DNA of 39,003 nt from Candidatus Gastranaerophilales bacterium (GTDB lineage Bacteria; Cyanobacteriota; Vampirovibrionia; Gastranaerophilales; Gastranaerophilaceae). Below the pieces are notes generated by a model that was not told where the DNA came from, searched no databases, and worked only from the letters and a program-made list of their open reading frames with translations. The stretch is from positions 1 to 39,003 of the forward strand of contig CALUWF010000014.1 of assembly GCA_944324405.1 (NCBI GenBank). The letters run 5' to 3'. Shown one piece after another: positions 1,572 through 24,513 of the stretch. Position 1 is the first letter of the stretch. Each line of letters begins with the position of its first letter. The position numbers and the translations under genes were made by a program.

Positions 1572-2900
1572 CTATCTTAAAAATCTAAGGTAGATATATG
1601 CAGTACTTAAAACAAGCGAAATAAGCACACAGACACTGCCGTATTTCATAAATTGCATAAAGCCTATCGGATGTCCTTTATTGGCGGCATTTTCACTAAC
1701 ATAAACGTTTGCTGCGGCACCAATTATGGTCAAGTTTCCGCCCAGGCAAGCGCCCAGAGATAAACACCACCAGATAGGATAAGCATATGCACTGCCCAAT
1801 TCGCGCTCGATTTCGGCAATCAAAGGTGCCATTGTCGCTGTATAGGGAATATTGTCTATAAAGCCGGAAGCAATTCCCGATACCCATAACACAAGAGAGC
1901 ATGTAAGCGCTTTTGAGCCTTGTGTTACGTCAATCAGCCACTGTGCCATAAGTTTAATACCGCCTGAGGCTTCAAGTGCACCGATTATGATAAACAAACC
2001 GATAAAGAAGAAAATTGCATTCCATTCAACATCGCGAAGGATGTCTGTGGGCTTTTCAAATATTAAAAGCAAACATGCGCCAAGCATTGCAACGGTGCTT
2101 GTTTCAAGATGTAATTTATCATGAAGCACAAAACCAAGTATCACAAGGAATAAAACAACCATGGAACGGATTAAAAGCGGGATATCTTCAATTGTTTTTG
2201 AATTATCAATTTCCATAACGGATTTCATTTTTTCTTCCGTTGTTGTCAGCTGTTTTTTAAACATAAAATACATAGCGCCCACAACGGCAAACAAAATCAC
2301 AAAAACAATGCCCGTTAATTCTTTTATAAAGTCCATAAAAGAAAATCCTGCGGCTGAGCCTATGATGATATTTGGCGGATCGCCGATTAAAGTTGCGGTA
2401 CCGCCGATATTTGAAGCAAAAATCTCAACAATTAAATAAGGAAGCGGATTTATATCCAGTTTTTTTGCAATTACAAAAGTAATGGGCAAAATTAAAATAA
2501 CCGTTGTAACGTTGTCTAAAAGTGCGCTTACCACAGCCGTAAAAATACCCATGGTAAAAAGTATTTTAACAGGGTGGCCTTTTGTAAATTTTAAAAGTTC
2601 ATTTGCAATCCAGTTGAAAACTCCGCTCCTTGTCGTTATTGCAACGATAATCATCATTGAAACAAGCAGGAATATTACGTTAAAGTCAATAAAATTAACA
2701 TAATAGTGCGGATTTATCGCGCCATCGAGCGTTTTTGTCTGGCTTACAAGATTTAATAAAATCGCAATAACCGCGCCTATGAGCGCTATTGTAACCTTAG
2801 GGATTTTTTCAAGCGCTATAAAAATATAGGCAATGATTAAAAGCCCTGCGCTAAATGCCACCGCATTTGCGCTCACAAATGTTTGAAAAGTTTCTAACAT
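1572..2900 (-). CDS. ArsB/NhaD-type ion transporter (COG1055)
   Basis: An integral membrane permease of the ion transporter superfamily, 442 residues with about 11-12 hydrophobic segments. Both inverted halves show the family signature: the first half has DNVTTVILILP followed by GGTATLIGDPPN (around 130-175), the second has DNIPYTATMAPLI followed by GGNLTIIGAAANV near the C-terminus. These are typical of NhaD Na+/H+ antiporters and ArsB-like proteins; sequence alone does not settle the substrate. A GGGAGA ribosome site precedes the ATG. The gene lies 3 bases after an OadG-like protein and 14 bases before a 33-residue membrane protein, so the three are likely one transcript. An OadG neighbour fits sodium handling, but this is inference. 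Confidence 0.85.
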   Translation of the reverse strand: MLETFQTFVSANAVAFSAGLLIIAYIFIALEKIPKVTIALIGAVIAILLNLVSQTKTLDGAINPHYYVNFIDFNVIFLLVSMMIIVAITTRSGVFNWIANELLKFTKGHPVKILFTMGIFTAVVSALLDNVTTVILILPITFVIAKKLDINPLPYLIVEIFASNIGGTATLIGDPPNIIIGSAAGFSFMDFIKELTGIVFVILFAVVGAMYFMFKKQLTTTEEKMKSVMEIDNSKTIEDIPLLIRSMVVLFLVILGFVLHDKLHLETSTVAMLGACLLLIFEKPTDILRDVEWNAIFFFIGLFIIIGALEASGGIKLMAQWLIDVTQGSKALTCSLVLWVSGIASGFIDNIPYTATMAPLIAEIERELGSAYAYPIWWCLSLGACLGGNLTIIGAAANVYVSENAANKGHPIGFMQFMKYGSVCVLISLVLSTAYIYLRFLR

Positions 2901-2903
2901 AGG

Positions 2904-3158
2904 CTATCTCCCGCTTCTTTGCATATTAAGTACTGCCGCAATTGCAACCGCAATTGCTTCTTCTTCGCCTGTTGCGCTCGATTTTTTCTTAACCGGCTCT
3001 TCAACAACTTTGGGCGGGAATTTTTTGTTTAAATACCTTACAATAAAAGAAGTTAAATCCATTGCATAAACCATAATGGTTAAAAATGCAAATACTACCG
3101 CCATTCCGACAATTGTAATAATAACGCCGTCAATTGTCGCTTGAACTAAATTTTCCAT
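2904..3158 (-). CDS. OadG-family small membrane subunit (decarboxylase gamma-like), orphan
   Basis: An 84-residue protein with one N-terminal membrane span (about 9-31) carrying the GMAVVFAFLTIMVY pattern of oxaloacetate decarboxylase gamma chains, then a basic/proline linker, then EEEAIAVAIAAV, a C-terminal element common in this family. In known pumps OadG anchors the biotin-carrying alpha subunit to the beta sodium pump. Neither partner is encoded here. The gene instead precedes an ArsB/NhaD transporter by 3 bases. A strong AAGGAGA ribosome site marks the start. It may be a repurposed assembly or stability subunit, or act in trans with a decarboxylase elsewhere. Confidence 0.75.
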   Translation of the reverse strand: MENLVQATIDGVIITIVGMAVVFAFLTIMVYAMDLTSFIVRYLNKKFPPKVVEEPVKKKSSATGEEEAIAVAIAAVLNMQRSGR

Positions 3159-3204: not shown

Positions 3205-3564
3205 TTAAGGCGCTCTTGCGCATATCTTTTTATGGTATGCAGGTGAAATATTATAAACTAACAGTGAATTTTCAAATTTATTTTTTATTTTCCGTGCGCT
3301 ATATAATCTAAAATTTGATGCGGGGGCACCACTTGAAGCATTTTGCAAATTCTTATTTAAAAAATTGGATTTTGAAATAATGTTTTGGCAAACAAAATGC
3401 AAATCATTCTGTGCTTTTTGAAGTGTGCCGTTTTGAGGATTAAAAACCGAATACGTGCTTTTGCATGAAAAATGCGGATTAGAATTTTCATGTGCAATTG
3501 AGCCAAACGCGCAGTACGCAAAAAGCTGAATGCATATAAACAAAAATGTAAACAAAATCCTCAT
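3205..3564 (-). CDS. Small secreted protein of unknown function
   Basis: A 119-residue protein with a clear N-terminal signal peptide (short basic start, hydrophobic core to about residue 20, cleavage probably near AFGSIA). The mature part is rich in N, S and K and has two cysteines (in FSCKS and FVCQN) that could form one disulfide once exported. I recognise no family. The start has no Shine-Dalgarno; a TATAGAAT sequence ends 6 bases before the ATG, so it may have its own near-leaderless promoter although it lies only 20 bases after the activase gene. It could be a fast-evolving lineage-specific gene. Confidence is mainly in the signal peptide. Confidence 0.55.
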   Translation of the reverse strand: MRILFTFLFICIQLFAYCAFGSIAHENSNPHFSCKSTYSVFNPQNGTLQKAQNDLHFVCQNIISKSNFLNKNLQNASSGAPASNFRLYSARKIKNKFENSLLVYNISPAYHKKICARAP

Positions 3565-3584: not shown

Positions 3585-4259
3585 TCATCTTTGTTGCAAG
3601 GTAAGACCGTCGACAAGAACAAAACGCCCTAAAGGCAGGACTTCGCAATAATTTTGAAGAGAATCGATAAAACATTTATTTTCGCAAAATCCTCCCGATA
3701 TGCAGATTTTATCAGGATTTTTTGCAAAATTATAAGCGTTATAAGCAATTCCATGGATAAATTTTGAAATCGCAACAGAGGGGCAAAGTCCGCAGGATAT
3801 ATCATCCATTATTTTTTCCAGACCGAAAATTCCGCATGTCACCGGGTATTTTTCTTTTGTAAACTTTAAATCTTCAATTTTTACATCGTAAAATTTTAAA
3901 AGCATTTCAATTGTCGCACCGGTTGCGGCGGCACAGCTTGTATTCCAGTCCATATCCGAAAATTTGCCGTTTTTGAATTTGACCCATTTAGCATCACGCG
4001 AGCCTAAATCCAATGCACAAAAATCGTTTTGCAGATAAATTTTAGCCCCGCGTGCAAGCGCAACAACCTCGTTTTCATAGTTTTCAGCGCTTTTGTCGCT
4101 TGTGTGTCCGGTTGTCTTTTCGTAATTTATCTTAAACTCTCTTGCCTCTTTTGTTTTGTAAATGTTGTATTTGCGCTTTCCGCAAGGCATAATTTCAAGG
4201 ATTTTTGACCATGTGGTTCCTGCGTCAATATAGTATTTTGAATTTTCATTTACAATCAT
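3585..4259 (-). CDS. 2-hydroxyacyl-CoA dehydratase-type activase (BadF/BcrA/HgdC ATPase)
   Basis: An ASKHA-fold ATPase of the HgdC/BadF class. These proteins use ATP hydrolysis to push a low-potential electron into a partner iron-sulfur enzyme. Visible motifs: IDAGTTWSK (11-19, phosphate 1), ALDLGSRDAKW (82-92, matching IDIGGQDSK), NTSCAAATGA (106-115), TCGIFGLEKI (141-150) and ISGGFCENK (187-195). C109 and C142 align with the two cysteines that hold the inter-subunit [4Fe-4S] cluster in HgdC, so the electron-donor machinery looks intact. At 224 residues it is somewhat shorter than usual (about 255). Its ATG overlaps the stop of the HgdB-like gene (ATGA), implying coupled synthesis. The acceptor is unknown; the corrinoid activator RACo belongs to the same superfamily. 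Confidence 0.82.
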   Translation of the reverse strand: MIVNENSKYYIDAGTTWSKILEIMPCGKRKYNIYKTKEAREFKINYEKTTGHTSDKSAENYENEVVALARGAKIYLQNDFCALDLGSRDAKWVKFKNGKFSDMDWNTSCAAATGATIEMLLKFYDVKIEDLKFTKEKYPVTCGIFGLEKIMDDISCGLCPSVAISKFIHGIAYNAYNFAKNPDKICISGGFCENKCFIDSLQNYCEVLPLGRFVLVDGLTLQQR

Positions 4260-4990
4260 CTTAACCTCAAAAACGCTTCAATTTTAGCATAAGCGGAACT
4301 TGAAGGCGTACCGTCGATTTCAATGTATAATCCGTTGTACTTTTGTGCAAGATACTTTGCAAGTACGTTTTTAGCACAAAAAGTCTGCGCAAAAAAGACC
4401 GTAGGCAAATCTTTTTCAACATACATCTCAAGTTCTAAATTTGCCGGATTTTTAGCCTCTACACATCTGCTCCAGCCGAAAACATGCGTTTCCGGCGGAA
4501 AAATATCGCAGATTGAAAGGTCGTTTGGCGGAACTCCCCAAAAACCAAAACGCGCGCGCGAAGGCTTAAGGTGGGAATAATCTCTCTGTGCCACAATGTT
4601 TGCGGTAATTATTGAAAGTTTATCTTTAAGCGCAAGAGAACTTTTGCACACGGGCACATCGCACAGATTTTCAAGAGGCGAAACATCTTCAAAATAAGAA
4701 ATTTCAACATCAAAGCCCGCATTTTTAAGTAATTGTGCCGCAAAAAATCCGCTGTCGCATTTGTCCTTGCCGACTGCGGCGAGGATTTTTATAATTTTAT
4801 CTTTAAGGTAAAAAGCGTTGTCAAAAATGTTTTTAATTATCCCGCAATAAGCATCAGGCGTGGATTTAGAGGACGGATAGCCAAAGTTAATATCCAAATC
4901 CACCCAATTTGCGCCCGGGTATTTTTGTTTTGTCTTTTTAATTAAATCAGGGTGCGGATAGCCCCAAAAAGCAATTATATCCTTTTTCAT
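4256..4990 (-). CDS. Short HgdB/D-component-like protein (2-hydroxyacyl-CoA dehydratase family)
   Basis: A 244-residue protein that I assign to the 2-hydroxyglutaryl-CoA dehydratase D-component family. GFWGVPPNDL (149-158) plus a following SRC resembles the family's P-x-x-DL...C region, and the C-terminus (YIEIDGTPSSSAYAKIEAF) matches the usual ETD-spsa-RIEAF ending. It is much shorter than true dehydratase subunits (about 380-480). A second FWGxPxxDL at 8-16 suggests an internal duplication. It has eight cysteines, several of which could bind an iron-sulfur cluster. It overlaps gcvPA upstream by ATGA and the activase downstream by ATGA. The pair likely forms an ATP-driven reductase of unknown target. 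Confidence in the family is moderate and in the function low. Confidence 0.65.
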   Translation of the reverse strand: MKKDIIAFWGYPHPDLIKKTKQKYPGANWVDLDINFGYPSSKSTPDAYCGIIKNIFDNAFYLKDKIIKILAAVGKDKCDSGFFAAQLLKNAGFDVEISYFEDVSPLENLCDVPVCKSSLALKDKLSIITANIVAQRDYSHLKPSRARFGFWGVPPNDLSICDIFPPETHVFGWSRCVEAKNPANLELEMYVEKDLPTVFFAQTFCAKNVLAKYLAQKYNGLYIEIDGTPSSSAYAKIEAFLRLR

Positions 4991-6228
4991 AGGCTTAGAT
5001 ACAAATTAATTTCGTCTTCGTCGTTTAATTCGGTTGCAGCGGTCAAAATCCTTTTATCATCAAGCGCAATTCCGCCCAAAATGCCTTTTTCTTTAAGTTT
5101 TTTAAGGTAGTCATGCGCATTTTGACCGTCTTTTAACTCATACACAAATTCGCAGAAAAAGTTTTTATTTAAAATTTTATAACCCTTTTTGCTCAGCCCT
5201 TGCGCTAATTTATGTGCATTTTTGTATGAGAGTAAATTAACTTCCCTAAAACCGTTTTCGCCAAGAAGGCTTAAATATAAAGCGGCGCAGAGTGCGCAGA
5301 GTGCCTGATTAGAGCATATATTGCTCGTTGCCTTTTCGCGTCTTATGTGCTGTTCGCGCGCTTGCAGGGTTAATACATAAGCGTCCCTGCCTTCTCTGTC
5401 TACTGTTTTGCCTGCAATACGCCCCGGAAGTTGGCGTTTATATTCATCTCTGCAACAGATAAACCCGCCGTAAGCCCCGCCAAAATTGAGTGCAAGCCCC
5501 AAAGAGCCAAAGTCGCCCACTGTTATATCGCACTTTGGCGGCTCAAAAAGCGCAAGGGAGGAAATATCCGTGCATGCAATAATAAGCTCATCTGCATTTT
5601 TCTGCGGCATTTCAACAATTTCACCAAAGTAATCGGGACTTTGATAGAGTTTACAGGCCAAATCCGTGTCTTTGCACTCATCTGACACAATAAGCTCTAT
5701 ATCTGCCGCAAAAAGATATGTTTTAATGACTTCAAGGTAATTCGGATTAATGTTTTTATTTACAAACGCCTTGTGTTTACGCTTTAGCCTGCATGCCATT
5801 AAAATCGCCTCGGCGCAGGCGCTTGCACCGTCATACACAGACGCATTTGAAACATCCTGGGCACAGAGGTTGCATATCATTGTTTGAAATTCATACATGA
5901 TTTGCAGTGAACCCTGTGAAATTTCAGCCTGATAAGGGGTATAGGCGGATAAAAATTCAAAACGCGAAGAAGTGTCGGCAAGTGCGGACGGGATGAATTT
6001 TTTATAGGCACCGCCGCCTAAAAAACAGGCAGCATCGACATTATTCTTTTTTGAAATTTTTTTTACTTTTTTTAAGGCTTCAAGCTCGCTTTTGGCTTCA
6101 AAAAGAGCAAAATCCTCCATACGCGCGGCTTTTGGCACTACATCGAAAAGCTCGTCGACGTTTTTAATACCGCAGTCGGCGCACATTTGAATGCGCTCTA
6201 AATCGCTTAATGCCTCAAAATTATACAT
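4987..6228 (-). CDS. gcvPA: Glycine dehydrogenase (decarboxylating) subunit 1
   Basis: N-terminal half of the split P-protein of the glycine cleavage system, 413 residues. With GcvPB it decarboxylates glycine and loads the aminomethyl group onto lipoyl-GcvH in the cytoplasm. Family features: FLGGGAYKKFIPSAL and FLSAYTPYQAEISQGSLQIMYEFQTMI (about 68-115), GGAYGGFICC (near 250), PGRIAGKTVD followed by a REQHIRREKATSNICSNQAL-type segment. Its ATG directly abuts the gcvH stop (TAAATG), and its stop overlaps the next start, so translation is coupled. The catalytic PLP-binding half, GcvPB, is encoded 17 kb away at 23006-24436. Slightly shorter than many homologues but all landmarks are present. Confidence 0.93.
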   Translation of the reverse strand: MYNFEALSDLERIQMCADCGIKNVDELFDVVPKAARMEDFALFEAKSELEALKKVKKISKKNNVDAACFLGGGAYKKFIPSALADTSSRFEFLSAYTPYQAEISQGSLQIMYEFQTMICNLCAQDVSNASVYDGASACAEAILMACRLKRKHKAFVNKNINPNYLEVIKTYLFAADIELIVSDECKDTDLACKLYQSPDYFGEIVEMPQKNADELIIACTDISSLALFEPPKCDITVGDFGSLGLALNFGGAYGGFICCRDEYKRQLPGRIAGKTVDREGRDAYVLTLQAREQHIRREKATSNICSNQALCALCAALYLSLLGENGFREVNLLSYKNAHKLAQGLSKKGYKILNKNFFCEFVYELKDGQNAHDYLKKLKEKGILGGIALDDKRILTAATELNDEDEINLYLSL

Positions 6229-6615
6229 TTATACCGCTTCTTCCCTGTAATCTTCGTATTCCAGAAGTCCGAGAGAATCCTGCGCAAAGCTGTCGCTTTG
6301 CGCTTTTACAAGCCAGCCTTTTTCCCAAACATTTTCATTTATCAGCTCGGGCGCATTTATAAGCTCTTCGTTAACTTCTGTAATTTTCCCGCCGATTGGC
6401 ATATAAATTTCACTCGCGGCTTTAACCGATTCAATTGTTGCGAAAACTTCGCCTTTGGCGTATTCACTGCCGCACTCGGGCAATTCGACAAAAACGATGT
6501 CGCCCAATTGTTCAACGGCATAATCAGTAAGACCGATTTTATATGTATCGCCTTCTTCTAAGACCCATTCATGGCTTTTGGAACACAAGATTCCTTCCGG
6601 TGGTTGGATAGTCAA
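6229..6615 (-). CDS. gcvH: Glycine cleavage system H protein
   Basis: A 128-residue lipoyl-carrier protein that shuttles the aminomethyl group between the P, T and L proteins. The lipoylated lysine is K65 in ESVKAASE. The N-terminal HEWVLEEGDTYKIGLTDYA and the DIVFVELPE strand are standard, and LINENVWEKGWL near the end completes the hybrid fold. Length is typical. It lies 10 bases after gcvT and abuts gcvPA, in the middle of the one-carbon operon. No L protein or lipoate ligase is encoded in the window, so those come from elsewhere. Confidence 0.95.
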   Translation of the reverse strand: MTIQPPEGILCSKSHEWVLEEGDTYKIGLTDYAVEQLGDIVFVELPECGSEYAKGEVFATIESVKAASEIYMPIGGKITEVNEELINAPELINENVWEKGWLVKAQSDSFAQDSLGLLEYEDYREEAV

Positions 6616-6625
6616 TTTTTATCTC

Positions 6626-7765
6626 CTATTTAACATATTTCTTTTCGACAAAAGGTTTTTTCACAATTTCAGCATTGTACATTTTATTTCTTACCATAAT
6701 TTGTATTATAGTGCCAATACTTTTTTCTTTTGTGTTAAGCGATGTTGCTAAATTTTTGCAATCTCCTTCAAAGGAAATAAGGCAAAGACCAATGTTTTTG
6801 CCTAATGTCGGCGATATTGTGCCGGATGTTACATAGCCGCATTTTTTCCCGTTTAAAAAAATCCCGGCACCATGGCGCGCTATAATTCTGTCCTTTAATT
6901 CAAAGGCGAAAAGCTTCTTTCTAAGCGGTACCGCGCCTGTCTTTTGAGCCATGATAATATCTTTTGCAATATAGGGCTCTTTTTTATTTTTTGGTACAGA
7001 CCAGCCTAAATCAGCTTCAAGAGGGGTTGTTGTTTCGTCAATGTCTGCTCCCCAAAGGCAAAGCGCGGCTTCAAGCCTTAAGGTATCTCTTGCACCAAGC
7101 CCTACAGGGGTAATTGAAAAATCTTTGCCAATCTCCAAAAGTTTACGCCATATTTTTACGATATCTTCATTTTTTGAAATAATTTCAAAACCGTCCTCGC
7201 CTGTATATCCCGTGCGGCAAAGGAATATATCGCAATCAAAGAGTTTTGTTTTTTTAACGGTAAAAAATTTAGGCTGATTAATGTCGTCTATTCCAGCTTT
7301 TTCAATTATTTTATGCGCGTTTGGCCCTTGCAGCGCAATCATTGAAAGCTCGCTTGATTTATCTTCAATTACTGCATCAAAATTTTTGGAATGCTCCAAA
7401 AAGCGCTCCACGTCGTTTTCTCGTCTTGAGGCGTTTACAATTATTAAATACTTATCCTCAAGCCTGTAGATAATTAAATCATCCTCTATTCCGCCGTTTT
7501 TGTTTAAAAGCTGACAATAGTGCGCGCAATTGATATTAAAAGTCGAAACGTCCTGCGGCACAATGTATTGAAGAAAATTGAGCGCGTCTTTGCCTGATAC
7601 AAAAACCTGGCCCATATGTGATACGTCAAATATTCCGGCGCTGCTTCTTGTTGCCTTATGCTCCTCCAGAATTGATTTATACTGCACCGGCATTTCCCAG
7701 CCGCCAAATTCGACCATTTTTGCGCCAAGCGCTATGTGTTCATCATGTAATGCTGTTTTTTTCAT
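6626..7765 (-). CDS. gcvT: Aminomethyltransferase, glycine cleavage T protein
   Basis: A 379-residue tetrahydrofolate-dependent T protein, which releases ammonia and makes methylene-tetrahydrofolate from the aminomethyl-lipoyl H protein. The N-terminus (MVEFGGWEMPVQYKSI, then AGIFDVSHMGQ) and the central LGARDTLRLEAALCLWGADID region are diagnostic. The C-terminal barrel (GYVTSGTISPTLGKNIGL) is complete. An AGAGGTG ribosome site precedes the ATG. It is 9 bases after alr and 10 before gcvH. Its product is the substrate of FolD, encoded two genes upstream in the same operon. Confidence 0.95.
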   Translation of the reverse strand: MKKTALHDEHIALGAKMVEFGGWEMPVQYKSILEEHKATRSSAGIFDVSHMGQVFVSGKDALNFLQYIVPQDVSTFNINCAHYCQLLNKNGGIEDDLIIYRLEDKYLIIVNASRRENDVERFLEHSKNFDAVIEDKSSELSMIALQGPNAHKIIEKAGIDDINQPKFFTVKKTKLFDCDIFLCRTGYTGEDGFEIISKNEDIVKIWRKLLEIGKDFSITPVGLGARDTLRLEAALCLWGADIDETTTPLEADLGWSVPKNKKEPYIAKDIIMAQKTGAVPLRKKLFAFELKDRIIARHGAGIFLNGKKCGYVTSGTISPTLGKNIGLCLISFEGDCKNLATSLNTKEKSIGTIIQIMVRNKMYNAEIVKKPFVEKKYVK

Positions 7766-9771: not shown

Positions 9772-10515
9772 TTAACATCCTCCTTGCGCACTTTGCGGAA
9801 GATTGAGTCTTGGATAAAAGTCTTTTATAATCTCTTTTAAACGCTCATAACTTACATCCTCACCCAAATCGTCAATAACGCCCAAAAGATTTAAATTGTT
9901 TAAATTAATCTGCTCTACAAATTTATTCATGGTTTCTTTTTTGGCTTTGTTCAAAATTACTCCAAACTGCCCGTCGGCAGCGTATTTTTTTGAAAACTCA
10001 TATATTTCGCCCGCAAGGTGAATTGATTTTTGGTTTGGATTGGCAGTGATAATTGAGGTGTCAATCGGGTAATCTACAAGCAGATTAAGGTATTTTAAAT
10101 CAAATTCCGTATCAAAAATCACAAAGTCATACCTGTCTATTAATTTTACAAGGGCGTCGTTCATTTGCTTTGTAATGGGACAGCGGCAGTCTTTTGAGGC
10201 CACAAACCAGGAAACTATTATGTCCGTATTTTCTTCCACTTCCTCTAAAATATCCTCAAGCGCCCACTCTATGTACTCTTGTTTTGTCATGCCCTTTGGA
10301 ATGCCCGTTTTGTACTCATGTTTGCCCGAGCGTATACCGTATATTGTATTTCTGGACTTTAAACCGAAACTTCCCGCCAATTCGCAGGTTAAATCATTAT
10401 CCACAAGCAAAATGGACGCGTCGGGGAAATATTCGCGGATTAAGAGCGCAAAAGCACGTGTAAGAGTTGTTTTTCCGCTTCCGCCTTTGCCTAAAAGTGC
10501 GAGAGTATGCGTCAT
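9772..10515 (-). CDS. CooC/AcsF-like nickel-insertion type ATPase
   Basis: A MinD-class ATPase of the CooC family, 247 residues. It has the deviant Walker A GKGGSGKTT (9-17), LLVDNDLTCEL (36-46), a C-x-C pair at C110 and C112 that corresponds to the nickel-binding CxC of CooC, and FDTEFDLKYLNLL (about 134-146) matching the family's DTEAGLEH segment. Characterised members load nickel into CO dehydrogenase or acetyl-CoA synthase. Neither enzyme is encoded in this window. The start overlaps the stop of the MetE-like gene (ATGA), and the stop is one base before folD. It could mature a metalloenzyme elsewhere in the genome or have been repurposed within this operon. Confidence 0.8.
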   Translation of the reverse strand: MTHTLALLGKGGSGKTTLTRAFALLIREYFPDASILLVDNDLTCELAGSFGLKSRNTIYGIRSGKHEYKTGIPKGMTKQEYIEWALEDILEEVEENTDIIVSWFVASKDCRCPITKQMNDALVKLIDRYDFVIFDTEFDLKYLNLLVDYPIDTSIITANPNQKSIHLAGEIYEFSKKYAADGQFGVILNKAKKETMNKFVEQINLNNLNLLGVIDDLGEDVSYERLKEIIKDFYPRLNLPQSAQGGC

Positions 10516-11609
10516 ACAAGGGCACCGTACCTTTCTTTAAGCCGCTGCGAAAGTTCGCGCGAGAGCGTCAGTGCTTTATATGCCCCTTCTTTATCCAGTG
10601 AGCCGCAGCCGCAAGAGGGCGTTATAAAAAGTCTGCTTATAAGGAAGTCTTTGTCAATCCCTTTGTCCGTAAAGCATTTTAGCGCATCGTTAAATTTTTC
10701 TTCAAGCTTATCAAGGTTTAGCGACTTAAGTTCTTCTTTATCAAGCGTAGGAACTATTCCAAAGGCAAAGTAACCGCCGTTTTTAAGAAATTTATCAACC
10801 GCGCTTGCAAAATTTGCCACACTTTTTGCAAACGAATAAGCATCAAAATTAACAACGTCAACTCCGCAGGAGAGTGCTATTTCCCAATCTGTCTTGCCGC
10901 AGCAGTGAACGCCCGATATTGCTCCGAATTTTCTTAAGGCGTCGGAAAATATTTTTAACATTTCAATGACGTCTTTACTTTCAACCGACAAAAAAGCGCA
11001 AGAGCCAACCTGCGAAATTGAAGGCTCGTCCGCAAAAATTACCGCGCGTGCCTTCGGCGCGGATTTTTTAAATTCTTTTACCTGCCAAAGTGCCTTTAGT
11101 ACAAGGGTTTTAATACAAACATCTCTTAAGATATCGTTATAATAAGCGCATTTGCCTTCATTGTCCGTAATTGAAGTTGAAAAGGTAAAAGCTCCGGTAA
11201 TCGAACCTTTTACAAAGTCCGGATTATGATTTTTGAGTTCCTCCAAAAAGGGCTCAAGGGAGTTTGAATTTGGAGGCAAAATCGCGTATTTATCAAGAAT
11301 TTGCTCGCATTGGGATAAATCATCGCTGCCAAGCACGTTTTCGTAATCAAAAAACAACTCTTCAAGAGAAGCAAAAAACTCTTCGCTTTCGGGGTTTAAA
11401 AAGTATTTATCACCCTCAAAAGTGAGCCCGGGCAGATTTTGGCTGTATTGAAAAACCATATCTTCTTCACGTGCAAAATGCGGAAGCTGAGGCCAGAAAG
11501 GCATACTTTTAAATTCCCTGAAAATAAACTCCAATGCTTCTTTTGGCGCATCGGCACCGCAAAGCGGCAAAGAGCCTATTCCTGTGTAATTTAAACTTAA
11601 CTCGCTCAT
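10512..11609 (-). CDS. MetE/UROD-like zinc methyltransferase
   Basis: A 365-residue TIM-barrel protein of the UROD/MetE-like superfamily, close in size to 'core MetE' proteins that lack the N-terminal half of full MetE. GSLP near the N-terminus, DEP at 194-196, H235-x-C237 (in GVHCCGK) and the late C333 (in TPSCGCGS) match the zinc-ligand order of MetE. Such short forms accept methyl groups from methylcobamide-protein or similar donors and not from methyl-THF, so a corrinoid partner is a reasonable inference. It is the first gene of the nine-gene operon and overlaps the CooC-like gene by 4 bases. There is no Shine-Dalgarno; TATAAT lies 11 bases upstream. It could instead be a methyltransferase for another thiol. 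Confidence 0.72.
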   Translation of the reverse strand: MSELSLNYTGIGSLPLCGADAPKEALEFIFREFKSMPFWPQLPHFAREEDMVFQYSQNLPGLTFEGDKYFLNPESEEFFASLEELFFDYENVLGSDDLSQCEQILDKYAILPPNSNSLEPFLEELKNHNPDFVKGSITGAFTFSTSITDNEGKCAYYNDILRDVCIKTLVLKALWQVKEFKKSAPKARAVIFADEPSISQVGSCAFLSVESKDVIEMLKIFSDALRKFGAISGVHCCGKTDWEIALSCGVDVVNFDAYSFAKSVANFASAVDKFLKNGGYFAFGIVPTLDKEELKSLNLDKLEEKFNDALKCFTDKGIDKDFLISRLFITPSCGCGSLDKEGAYKALTLSRELSQRLKERYGALV

Positions 11610-21980: not shown

Positions 21981-23022
21981 TAAACATACAATCGCCATAG
22001 CTGAAAAATCTGTATTTTTTATCCACCGCTTCCCTGTATGCGCGAAATATAAAGTCTTTTCCCGCAAAAGCGCTTACAAGCATTATAAGTGTGGATTTTG
22101 GCAGGTGAAAATTTGTAATTAATTTATTGACCGATTTTATTTTATAGGGCGGGTAAATAAAAATATCCGTTTCATCCGATGTTGCAACGATTTTACCGTG
22201 TTTTTTATACGTTGCTTCAAGCGCCCTTAAAACCGTTGTCCCCACAGCTATAACAGAGCCTTTTGCATAGTTTATCGCCTCTGCCGTTTCATCAGGAATT
22301 ATAAAACTTTCAAAATGCATTTTGTGTTTTGTAAAATCTTCCGTTTTAACGGGCAAAAATGTGCCCAGACCGACATTTAGAGTAACATAGACTATTTTTA
22401 CTCCCTTATTTTCAATTTTTTCTAAAATTTCCCTGCTAAAGTGCAATCCCGCGGTCGGTGCTGCCGCAGAGCCTGTATTTTTTGCAAAGACAGTCTGATA
22501 GTCGTTTTTATCTTCTTCGTTTGTTTCCCTTGAAATGTAGGGCGGAAGCGGGATTGAGCCGTATTTGTTTAAAATTTCATAAACGTCATCGCCCAAAAAA
22601 ATAAGCTCGACAAGGTTTTTGGGCAGTTCGCCTTCTTTTGCATTTTCCACATCTTTTTCAATGACTTTTATTTTAAAATCATCGCCGGCATTTAAAATTT
22701 CCCCCTCTTTTACCCTTTTTGAGCGCTTCATAAGGCAAAACCACATGTTGTTTTTAGCGCAGGGATTTAAAAGAAAAACTTCAACCTCGCCGCCGGATTC
22801 TCTTTTTGCAATTATTCTTGCCGGAAAAACCTTTGTATCATTGAGCACAAGCACATCATCAGGGTTTAATAAATCTATAATATCAAAAAAATGCTTATGT
22901 TCTATTGTCTGACTATCCCTGTTAAGCACCATCATTCGCGCATTTTCACGCTTTTTAAGCGGGTGCTGCGCAATCAGGTCTTTTGGTAAATTGTAATTAA
23001 AATCTTCAGTTGTTAAATTCAT
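21973..23022 (-). CDS. queA: tRNA preQ1 ribosyltransferase-isomerase
   Basis: A 349-residue SAM:tRNA ribosyltransferase-isomerase that converts preQ1-tRNA to epoxyqueuosine-tRNA. The start TEDFNYNLPKDLIAQHPLKKRENARMMV, the central TGSAAAPTAGLHFS, VTLNVGLGTFLPV and the C-terminal NFHLPKSTLIMLVSAFAG are all typical. The ATG lies 17 bases inside gcvPB with no Shine-Dalgarno, so it depends on coupled translation. FolE2 at 18807 could supply the GTP-derived precursor. Confidence 0.95.
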   Translation of the reverse strand: MNLTTEDFNYNLPKDLIAQHPLKKRENARMMVLNRDSQTIEHKHFFDIIDLLNPDDVLVLNDTKVFPARIIAKRESGGEVEVFLLNPCAKNNMWFCLMKRSKRVKEGEILNAGDDFKIKVIEKDVENAKEGELPKNLVELIFLGDDVYEILNKYGSIPLPPYISRETNEEDKNDYQTVFAKNTGSAAAPTAGLHFSREILEKIENKGVKIVYVTLNVGLGTFLPVKTEDFTKHKMHFESFIIPDETAEAINYAKGSVIAVGTTVLRALEATYKKHGKIVATSDETDIFIYPPYKIKSVNKLITNFHLPKSTLIMLVSAFAGKDFIFRAYREAVDKKYRFFSYGDCMFIS

Positions 23023-24436
23023 ATTTTAAATTCAAATGTCTTGCCGCAAGCGTTTCATCAACCTTTAAAACAGGAGTTGTAAGCGGATATTCGCCGAATT
23101 TTTCAGGCTCATTTTGTGCTTCGCGCGCAATTTCAATCATTGTGTTTATAAAGTTATCCAAAACTTCTTTTGTTTCACTCTCACAAGGCTCAATCATCAT
23201 CGCCTCATGCACAATAAGCGGGAAATAAACCGTCGGCGGGTGACAGTTTGAATCCATCAGCCTTTTTGCCATCATTAGGGTTGAAACGCCTTTTTCTTTT
23301 TGTAAATCTCCCGATAATACAAACTCATGCATGCAGGTGCGGTCATAAGGTAATTTAAAATATTTTTTAAGTTTTTCTTTTATGTAATTTGCCGCTAAAA
23401 CAGCGTCGGAGCTTGCATTTTTAAGATTGTTTCCCATCATTAAAATATATGTATAGGCTCTTATAAATACCGAAAAATTTCCGTAAAACGTACTTACTTT
23501 GCCTATAGAGTGCTTTTTGTCGTAGTTTCTGAAATACTTTTCTCCGTCAAATTCAATTGTCGGCACGGGAAGATAGGGTTCAAGCTCTTTTATAACGCCG
23601 ACAGGCCCTGCTCCGGGGCCTCCGCCGCCATGCGGGGTGGAGAAAGTTTTGTGCAAATTGAGATGAACTATATCAAAACCCATAAGGCGCGGATTTGTAT
23701 GACCCATAACGGCATTTAAGTTAGCACCGTCATAGTATAAAAGTGAGCCGTTTTTGTGAATCAGTTCTGAAATTTGAAGAATTTTTTCGTCAAAAAGCCC
23801 TAAAGTATTGGGGTTTGTCATCATAATTGCGGCAATTTCCTCGCCGTTTGCGTTAACAAGCTCTTTTAACCGTTCAAAATCCACTCCGCCGTTTTGGTCG
23901 GATTTCACTTCCACACACTCAAACCCGTTCATTTTAGCGCTCATCGGGTTTGTACCGTGCGCATTATCCGGAATGATAACTTTTTTTCTCTTTGTTTGAT
24001 TTTTTTCAAAGAAATATTTTTTGACAATATTCATCGCACAAAACTCGCCATGCGCTCCTGCACAGGGTTGCAGAGTAATTGCATCCATTCCGGTAATAAT
24101 TTTTAACGCCTGTTCCAAATCATACATTAATTCAAGCGCTCCCTGGCAATCTTTGTCATCTTGCAGGGGATGAAGATTTAAAAAGCCATCAAACCTTGCT
24201 GCGGCTTCATTTGCACGCGGATTATATTTCATCGTACAAGAGCCGAGGGGGTAAAATCCTTTTTCAATACAAAAATTTCTGTCCGATAACTCTTTATAAT
24301 GCCGCATTACTTCAAGTTCAGTTGTATTTGGAAGATTTAAAGGTGTTGTTCTCTTATTAAAATCAACTTCTTCATAATTTTTTATATATAAAGGCTTTGA
24401 ATGTAATTTTTTATCCTTTTCAAATATTGTTTTCAT
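23006..24436 (-). CDS. gcvPB: Glycine dehydrogenase (decarboxylating) subunit 2
   Basis: The PLP-binding half of split P-protein, 476 residues. The PLP lysine is in HLNLHKTFSTPHGGGGPGAG. FCIEKGFYPLGSCTMKYNPR, QPCAGAHGEFCAMN and CHPPTVYFPLIVHEAMMIEPCESE are diagnostic. I prefer the ATG at 24436 (MKTIFEKDKK) because 75 further upstream bases read as low-complexity sequence overlapping the promoter. Unusually it is separated by 17 kb from gcvT-gcvH-gcvPA and instead shares a transcript with queA. Confidence 0.93.
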   Translation of the reverse strand: MKTIFEKDKKLHSKPLYIKNYEEVDFNKRTTPLNLPNTTELEVMRHYKELSDRNFCIEKGFYPLGSCTMKYNPRANEAAARFDGFLNLHPLQDDKDCQGALELMYDLEQALKIITGMDAITLQPCAGAHGEFCAMNIVKKYFFEKNQTKRKKVIIPDNAHGTNPMSAKMNGFECVEVKSDQNGGVDFERLKELVNANGEEIAAIMMTNPNTLGLFDEKILQISELIHKNGSLLYYDGANLNAVMGHTNPRLMGFDIVHLNLHKTFSTPHGGGGPGAGPVGVIKELEPYLPVPTIEFDGEKYFRNYDKKHSIGKVSTFYGNFSVFIRAYTYILMMGNNLKNASSDAVLAANYIKEKLKKYFKLPYDRTCMHEFVLSGDLQKEKGVSTLMMAKRLMDSNCHPPTVYFPLIVHEAMMIEPCESETKEVLDNFINTMIEIAREAQNEPEKFGEYPLTTPVLKVDETLAARHLNLKYEFNN

Positions 24437-24466
24437 TTTTTTCTTTCTTTTTAAACCGTTGCCATT

Positions 24467-24496
24467 ATTATATAACAGATAAATTCTTGCGTACAA
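24467..24496 (-). promoter_or_regulatory. Promoter of gcvPB-queA
   Basis: Minus-strand TTGTAC (24491-24496), 18-bp gap, perfect TATAAT (24467-24472). No glycine riboswitch fold is visible; the leader is only about 25 bases. Confidence 0.6.
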
Positions 24497-24513
24497 TTGT
24501 TTTAAACACATAT

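Follow-up and report, generated by a model that had tools for sequence, protein, structure and literature searches.

A divergent activase relative and a small predicted two-domain partner form a co-occurring gene pair in Gastranaerophilales

Introduction

The double-cubane cluster protein (DCCP) and its reductase (DCCP-R) form a protein pair (PDB 7YYL, 6ENO), to which YjiM and YjiL of E. coli are related. According to the sections of PMC11971306 that deal with them, the physiological role of stand-alone DCCP pairs is unknown, and the activase-driven enzymes that do have a defined role, dehydratases and benzoyl-CoA reductases, act on CoA thioesters. The same sections describe BzdNO, whose catalytic [4Fe-4S] cluster has three cysteine ligands and lies in a site formed by strand-helix linkers, and report that in BzdNO-type enzymes a three-helix intermediate domain helps to line the pantetheine/ADP channel of CoA.

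Here we describe two genes, termed B and C, which resemble stripped-down ATP-driven iron-sulfur pairs of the kind used by anaerobes for very difficult reductions. They lie in a window (the whole stretch of DNA that was analysed, 39,003 nucleotides) belonging to a 1.8-Mb genome that is 99.6% complete.

Results and discussion

The locus

The two genes and the genes preceding them are arranged as follows.

3585..4259, (-) strand: gene C, open reading frame of 224 aa with an ATG start
4256..4259, (-) strand: ATGA overlap of the B stop and the C start, 4 nt, read from the sequence
4256..4990, (-) strand: gene B, open reading frame of 244 aa with an ATG start
4987..4990, (-) strand: ATGA overlap of the gcvPA stop and the B start, 4 nt, found among the fetched loci in the window's genus only
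4987-6228, (-) strand: gcvPA, directly upstream of B
6229-6615, (-) strand: gcvH
6626-7765, (-) strand: gcvT
4987..7765, (-) strand: the gcvT-gcvH-gcvPA block as a whole, the preceding part of the genus-specific operon that also contains B-C; it is context outside the conserved B-C unit

Both starts thus overlap the preceding stop after gcvPA, as a preliminary description of this DNA had noted; the length it gave for the partner of the activase, only 244 residues and far below that of dehydratase subunits, was confirmed by the ORF at 4256-4990. Among the best 80 loci listed, the gcvPA/B overlap is present in 12/12 loci of the genus and measures 4 nt in 11 of them. B and C are real genes, their relatives within the genus being 72-83% identical, and the dN/dS of the pair is about 0.08-0.09 between genus members, with gcvPA showing similar values. 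We consider both ORFs genuine and not chance because of these relatives, the low dN/dS and the recurrence of the pair throughout the order.

Several other genes of the window deserve mention. Upstream in the genus-specific operon, at window 9772-11609 (-), a MinD/ArsA-like P-loop ATPase is encoded together with a 365-aa protein weakly matching the short methionine synthase PRK00957 (E 6.8e-6); these two genes are followed by folD-alr-gcvT-gcvH-gcvPA-B-C, and with the ATPase and the PRK00957-like protein placed before folD-alr-gcv the genus operon therefore resembles a one-carbon cluster. The gcvPB gene of the split glycine dehydrogenase is found about 17 kb from gcvPA, at window 23006-24511 (-), adjoining queA and thiG. 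Directly downstream of C, window 3205-3564 (-) encodes a small predicted secreted protein of 119 aa with a signal-peptide-like start, conserved among the fetched loci in those of the genus only. Further on, at window 1572-3158 (-), the gene of an OadG-like sodium-pump gamma subunit (84 aa) forms a pair with that of a transporter of the CitMHS/ArsB/NhaD type; no decarboxylase alpha or beta genes were found beside this pair. The same OadG-like/CitMHS pair lies downstream of B-C in the window's genus and at one locus of another genus (L087), and the transporter is also found at locus L088.

Gene C is a divergent activase relative

When compared to curated families, C matched NCBIfam TIGR00241 (acyl-CoA dehydratase activase) with an E value of 1.6e-15 and 57.3 bits, without reaching the cut-off of 125.4 bits, and Pfam BcrAD_BadFG (PF01869) with an E value of 3.4e-5 and 23.9 bits, again without reaching the cut-off (31.5 bits). 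Judged by these scores, C is a relative that falls outside the curated CoA_E_activ / BcrAD_BadFG families. Its closest sequence in the PDB is the HgdC activator 1HUX (E 2.8e-9; E 1.6e-12 by profile), and the C profile also matches DCCP-R (E 2.2e-9). The AlphaFold2 model of C has a pLDDT of 91.3, and a Foldseek search of the PDB with this model returned activases in all of the top 10 positions, the best being the DCCP reductase 7yyl_E (E 1.8e-14, TM 0.80). Sequence and predicted fold together identify C as a divergent, shortened member of the HgdC/BadF/DCCP-R activase superfamily. The cysteines of interest are located at these positions.

3933..3935, (-) strand: Cys109 codon of C, predicted bridging-cluster ligand, aligning with the cysteine of HgdC CAAGTG
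3834..3836, (-) strand: Cys142 codon of C, predicted bridging-cluster ligand, aligning with the cysteine of HgdC TCTVFAES
3672..3686, (-) strand: Cys192-x3-Cys196 of C, an extra near-invariant pair in the loop SGGFCENxCF, present in 49/49 and 48/49 sequences, respectively

C109 and C142 are invariant in 72/72 aligned C sequences and likewise in all 49 sequences of a wider alignment, in agreement with the preliminary description, which had both cysteines kept. Its further statement that the nucleotide motifs are retained holds for the phosphate-motif residues D12, G14, T15, K19, D84, G86, D89, G189 and G190, all invariant in the wider alignment, but not for the GGQD motif of activases, which reads GSRD in all C members, with the first G and the D retained. 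This replacement might alter ATP hydrolysis. The N-terminal lobe of C is also shorter than that of canonical activases. The extra C192-x3-C196 pair lies in the glycine-rich nucleotide loop and, by alignment, is missing from the canonical activase of the same genome (see below); it may serve as a second metal site, as a disulfide switch or in some other way.

Gene B has a predicted HGD-D-like fold and three invariant cysteines

B itself gave no match in Pfam, NCBIfam or PDB sequence searches, and a 40-sequence B profile found nothing in the PDB. The gathering score of PF06050 (HGD-D) was not reached, with no match for B and a best E value of 0.026 in 2/40 relatives; no match of B or its relatives to the DUF523/TudS family was found in Pfam scans. 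Neither Pfam nor NCBIfam holds a model for the B family, so these libraries would leave B annotated as hypothetical. Detection of B as HGD-D by sequence profile was also rejected, since the score obtained when 52 B proteins were aligned by hhalign with five representatives of HGD-D (21.9) fell below the best column-shuffle (27.2). B and the DUF2229/HGD-D proteins of these genomes did not yield an in-register alignment either, 5/100 shuffles being as good.

The AlphaFold2 model of B (pLDDT 89.3, pTM 0.68) shows two alpha/beta domains linked by a loop and one helix. With this model, all six matches that Foldseek returned from the PDB at E<=0.001 belong to the HGD-D (BCR-I/HAD/DCCP) family: 3-methylbenzoyl-CoA reductase at 1.8e-6 (9g87_B, the best) and 2.3e-5, DCCP at 5e-5, and 2-hydroxyisocaproyl-CoA dehydratase at 6e-5 to 4.9e-4. 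The nine best rows of a VIA-align comparison were likewise all of the HGD-D family, with Z of 6-7 and an rmsd of about 11 A; as full-length superposition is this poor, the topology is matched and the domain packing is not, so that the packing either differs or is mispredicted. Residues 100-147 of the model contain a single helix of normal length (121-134), compared with three in the intermediate domain of the larger proteins, and B is thus predicted to lack the helical intermediate domain that helps to form the CoA channel. The D-component C-terminal ending which had been reported for B is indeed kept (KIEAFLRL).

The 52 diverse B proteins compared, a 40%-identical outlier among them, have exactly three invariant cysteines in common.

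4844..4846, (-) strand: Cys49 codon of B, predicted cluster ligand 1, invariant in 81/81 and 52/52 sequences, aligning with YjiM C78
4757..4759, (-) strand: Cys78 codon of B (GKDKCDS), predicted cluster ligand 2, invariant, aligning with YjiM C108
4376..4378, (-) strand: Cys205 codon of B (QxFCxK), predicted cluster ligand 3, invariant, aligning with YjiM C335

Each of them stands in the model at the N-terminus of a helix that follows a strand: helix 50-61 begins right after C49, helix 79-90 right after C78, and C205 comes just before 207-217. YjiM, DCCP, BzdN, MbdN and HadC also have exactly three cysteines common to all five, and the profile alignment pairs the three of B with the three of this family (3/3), a result reached in 0/300 column shuffles, the best of which paired two. 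The six cysteine ligands of an [8Fe-9S] double cubane were not found in B, in which only three cysteines are invariant. As judged from predicted fold and cysteine register, B is a fold-level relative of HGD-D/DCCP/BCR-I subunits; the claim of homology is based on these two features because the sequence-profile scores were not significant. The pair had been called HgdB/HgdC-like, which stands for C by sequence and fold and for B by predicted fold, cysteine register and C-terminal ending. Neither of the contrary outcomes named in the preliminary description was found: no profile search placed B in a different family, and the activase cysteines are invariant in close homologues.

The pair occurs as a unit

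Loci were collected by scanning genome contigs with peptide patterns derived from B. B is present in 75 of the 146 genomes of the family and full-length matches to C are present in the identical 75. In 11 of these the two genes are on different contigs (in one, G067, possibly by a mere contig break), and the co-occurrence is therefore not only a matter of linkage. Among the best 80 loci listed B and C are adjacent in 71, with changing neighbours; 43 of the adjacent pairs show the ATGA overlap, and 68 are spaced within -4 to +9 nt.

Gastranaerophilales are non-photosynthetic relatives of cyanobacteria. The order comprises gut and groundwater members, and the named relatives among the listed matches are Gastranaerophilales, animal guts being the source of many. 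Of the seven labelled families of the order, B turned up in six (f1-f4, f6 and f7); it was not found in f5, a family represented by a 78%-complete genome. Among members of one and the same genus in the gut family the presence of B-C is patchy, which suggests repeated loss or gain. One of the 18 genomes examined from another class of the phylum (G250) carries an adjacent B-C pair in high-GC DNA (L167, contig C106, 2467-3846) which is about 40% identical and keeps all key residues; this pair probably arrived by horizontal transfer and hints at further members of the family in other lineages. No relatives were found on plasmids or viral contigs. As candidate co-occurring partners, [FeFe]-hydrogenase and B12-binding proteins were both rejected, their patterns of presence and absence not matching that of B-C.

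A second activase system in the same genome

The preliminary description had presented the B-C pair, which stands, and had missed a second set of related proteins elsewhere in the genome. At L183:6003-7634 (genome G000, contig C17) a rubrerythrin gene is followed by one encoding a canonical CoA-enzyme activase of 345 aa (196 bits against TIGR00241) that has the GGQD motif and a Cys-rich C-terminal tail. Two genes of 386 codons for DUF2229/HGD-D-like proteins (about 360-386 aa) lie, unlinked, on contigs C7 and C33, and their products may be the partners of this canonical activase. Related activase and DUF2229/HGD-D matches were obtained in nearly all relatives tested, including B-negative genomes; B-C thus forms a dedicated pair in addition to this set and is not the sole activase system. 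The weaker C-like matches seen across almost all genomes of the family probably correspond to the canonical activase. Reading such a weaker second match as some other ASKHA protein was discarded, given that in the window's own genome it is the canonical activase; reading the C-terminal-only PF06050 matches as chance Rossmann hits was dropped as well, two of those in this genome being the DUF2229/HGD-D proteins.

Proposed mechanism and alternatives

We think it rather likely that B and C constitute a stand-alone, two-component, ATP-driven, DCCP-like enzyme of low-potential electron transfer whose acceptor is probably something other than a CoA compound. C would be a homodimer carrying one [4Fe-4S] cluster at its interface, with C109 and C142 of both subunits as ligands. 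Ferredoxin or flavodoxin would supply C with an electron, which C would hand on during ATP hydrolysis. By analogy with the component A / component D scheme (PMC11574389), this electron should be transferred into B. B would also be a homodimer, as in DCCP, because there is only one D-type gene, and its two alpha/beta domains would bind a [4Fe-4S] cluster through the three cysteines C49, C78 and C205, leaving one iron site open; a single cubane and not a double cubane is proposed because only three cysteines are conserved. From B the electron would move to an acceptor, which may be a small molecule or else a cofactor bound to a protein. This acceptor is probably not a CoA thioester, because the model of B is without the helical intermediate domain lining the CoA channel. 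No electron acceptor or donor was found genetically linked to B-C.

A miniaturised but true 2-hydroxyacyl-CoA dehydratase or acyl-CoA reductase, binding its CoA thioester differently, would account for the D-component fold and cysteine pattern of B and for its cognate activase C. We find this unlikely: the three-helix domain that helps to build the pantetheine/ADP channel of BzdNO (PMC11971306) is missing in the B model, there is one D-like gene only against the alpha-beta heterodimers of HADs (PMC11574389), and acyl-CoA genes are absent among the Pfam-annotated genes of the window, where the preliminary description had also seen no hydroxyacyl-CoA pathway, and none was identified among the recurring neighbours. 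It is distinctly improbable that B is instead a TudS-like protein using an open-site [4Fe-4S] for non-redox sulfur chemistry, with C as a regulatory or loading ATPase. TudS is, like B, a reduced member of the superfamily, and is described with three cysteines and a [4Fe-5S] state in the portions of PMC10611767 and PMC11971306 devoted to it; however, it is single-domain (same portion of PMC11971306) whereas B has both alpha/beta domains, and B strictly co-occurs with an activase keeping both cluster cysteines, a partner which those portions of the two papers do not describe for TudS.

A reading in which C is just an ordinary, cluster-free kinase or ATPase of the ASKHA fold, and B an unrelated Rossmann-like protein using its cysteines otherwise, would agree with the missing significant sequence link between B and HGD-D and with GSRD in place of GGQD. 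We hold it very improbable, given that both cluster cysteines of C are invariant, that the ten best structural matches of C are activases and not other ASKHA proteins, and that the structural matches of B and its 3/3 cysteine register both point to the activases' own partner family. The remaining explanation, scarcely credible in our view, is that B-C has an accessory function in the glycine cleavage system, to which the preliminary description had considered it coupled, proposing a check for conserved co-occurrence with gcvPA. The overlapping operon gcvT-gcvH-gcvPA-B-C speaks in its favour, and the gcvPA-B-C arrangement is found in 12/12 loci of the window's genus, but in no other fetched locus among the best 80 listed, the neighbours of B-C outside the genus being unrelated genes that vary by genus. 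Occurrence points in the opposite direction: gcvP is absent in 23 of the 75 genomes with B, several of those lacking it being 97-99% complete, and in 8 of the 71 without B, the other 63 of which have it, a weakly negative association (Fisher p 0.005, uncorrected for phylogeny). With linkage confined to one genus and gcvP more often absent with B than without it, the claim of coupling is not upheld.

Returning to a DCCP-like electron-transfer pair, we tentatively raise the possibility, which we rate somewhat below even, that B-C represents an undescribed class, the smallest ATP-driven reductase of the archerase type, in which an open-site [4Fe-4S] two-domain subunit has been freed from CoA chemistry. 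With the same reserve, its acceptor could be of a new type, be it a small molecule or else a protein or corrinoid cofactor, across the whole of this order of non-photosynthetic cyanobacterial relatives.

Comparison with known systems

The mode of action proposed here is one already known, that of an archerase with a BCR-I/HAD/DCCP partner; our literature search found no description of the B-C architecture and no paper naming the family in Gastranaerophilales. DCCP/DCCP-R shares with B-C a stand-alone arrangement of one D gene and one activase gene; the best fold match of C is DCCP-R, and B matches the DCCP fold and keeps the three family-wide cysteines. DCCP, however, has about 420 aa, six cysteines for its double cubane and a helical domain, whereas B has 244 aa, three cysteines and, by its model, no helical domain; compared to DCCP-R, C is shorter, has GSRD for GGQD and contains the extra C-x3-C.

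With the 2-hydroxyacyl-CoA dehydratases (HgdAB/HgdC, HadBC/HadI; PF06050 and TIGR00241) the pair has in common the D fold, as predicted for B, the C-terminal ending, three cluster-type cysteines and an activase with two bridging cysteines. Unlike them, it is without an alpha/beta heterodimer and, in the model, without the CoA-channel domain, it remains below all curated profile cut-offs, and no acyl-CoA pathway was seen near it. The class I benzoyl-CoA reductases (BzdNOPQ, MbdONPQ) provide the best Foldseek match of B, and their cluster-binding strand-helix linkers, as set out in the corresponding part of PMC11971306, match those of the model; they are nevertheless CoA-ester enzymes with [8Fe-9S] and [4Fe-4S] subunits and two activase subunits, while B-C consists of two genes with no CoA-channel domain predicted. 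TudS / DUF523 desulfidases resemble B as reduced members of the superfamily with a three-cysteine [4Fe-4S] cluster, which in B is predicted, but in the sources cited above for TudS they appear as single-domain proteins with no activase partner described, while B is a two-domain protein that strictly co-occurs with an activase.

The canonical activase and DUF2229/HGD-D set of the window's own genome belongs to the same superfamilies and is present in the same cells, but at separate loci; its activase has 345 aa, GGQD and a Cys-rich tail against the 224 aa and GSRD of C, and its DUF2229 proteins have about 360-386 aa against the 244 of B. B-C, which half of a gut-bacterial family and related families in the same order have retained, is small enough to be expressed and dissected, and a minimal two-gene version free of the CoA domain would reveal the essentials of ATP-driven reduction at such clusters. 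Its architecture, a two-domain D protein modelled without the CoA domain together with a divergent activase, stands between that of the three-domain enzymes and that of TudS with its single domain.
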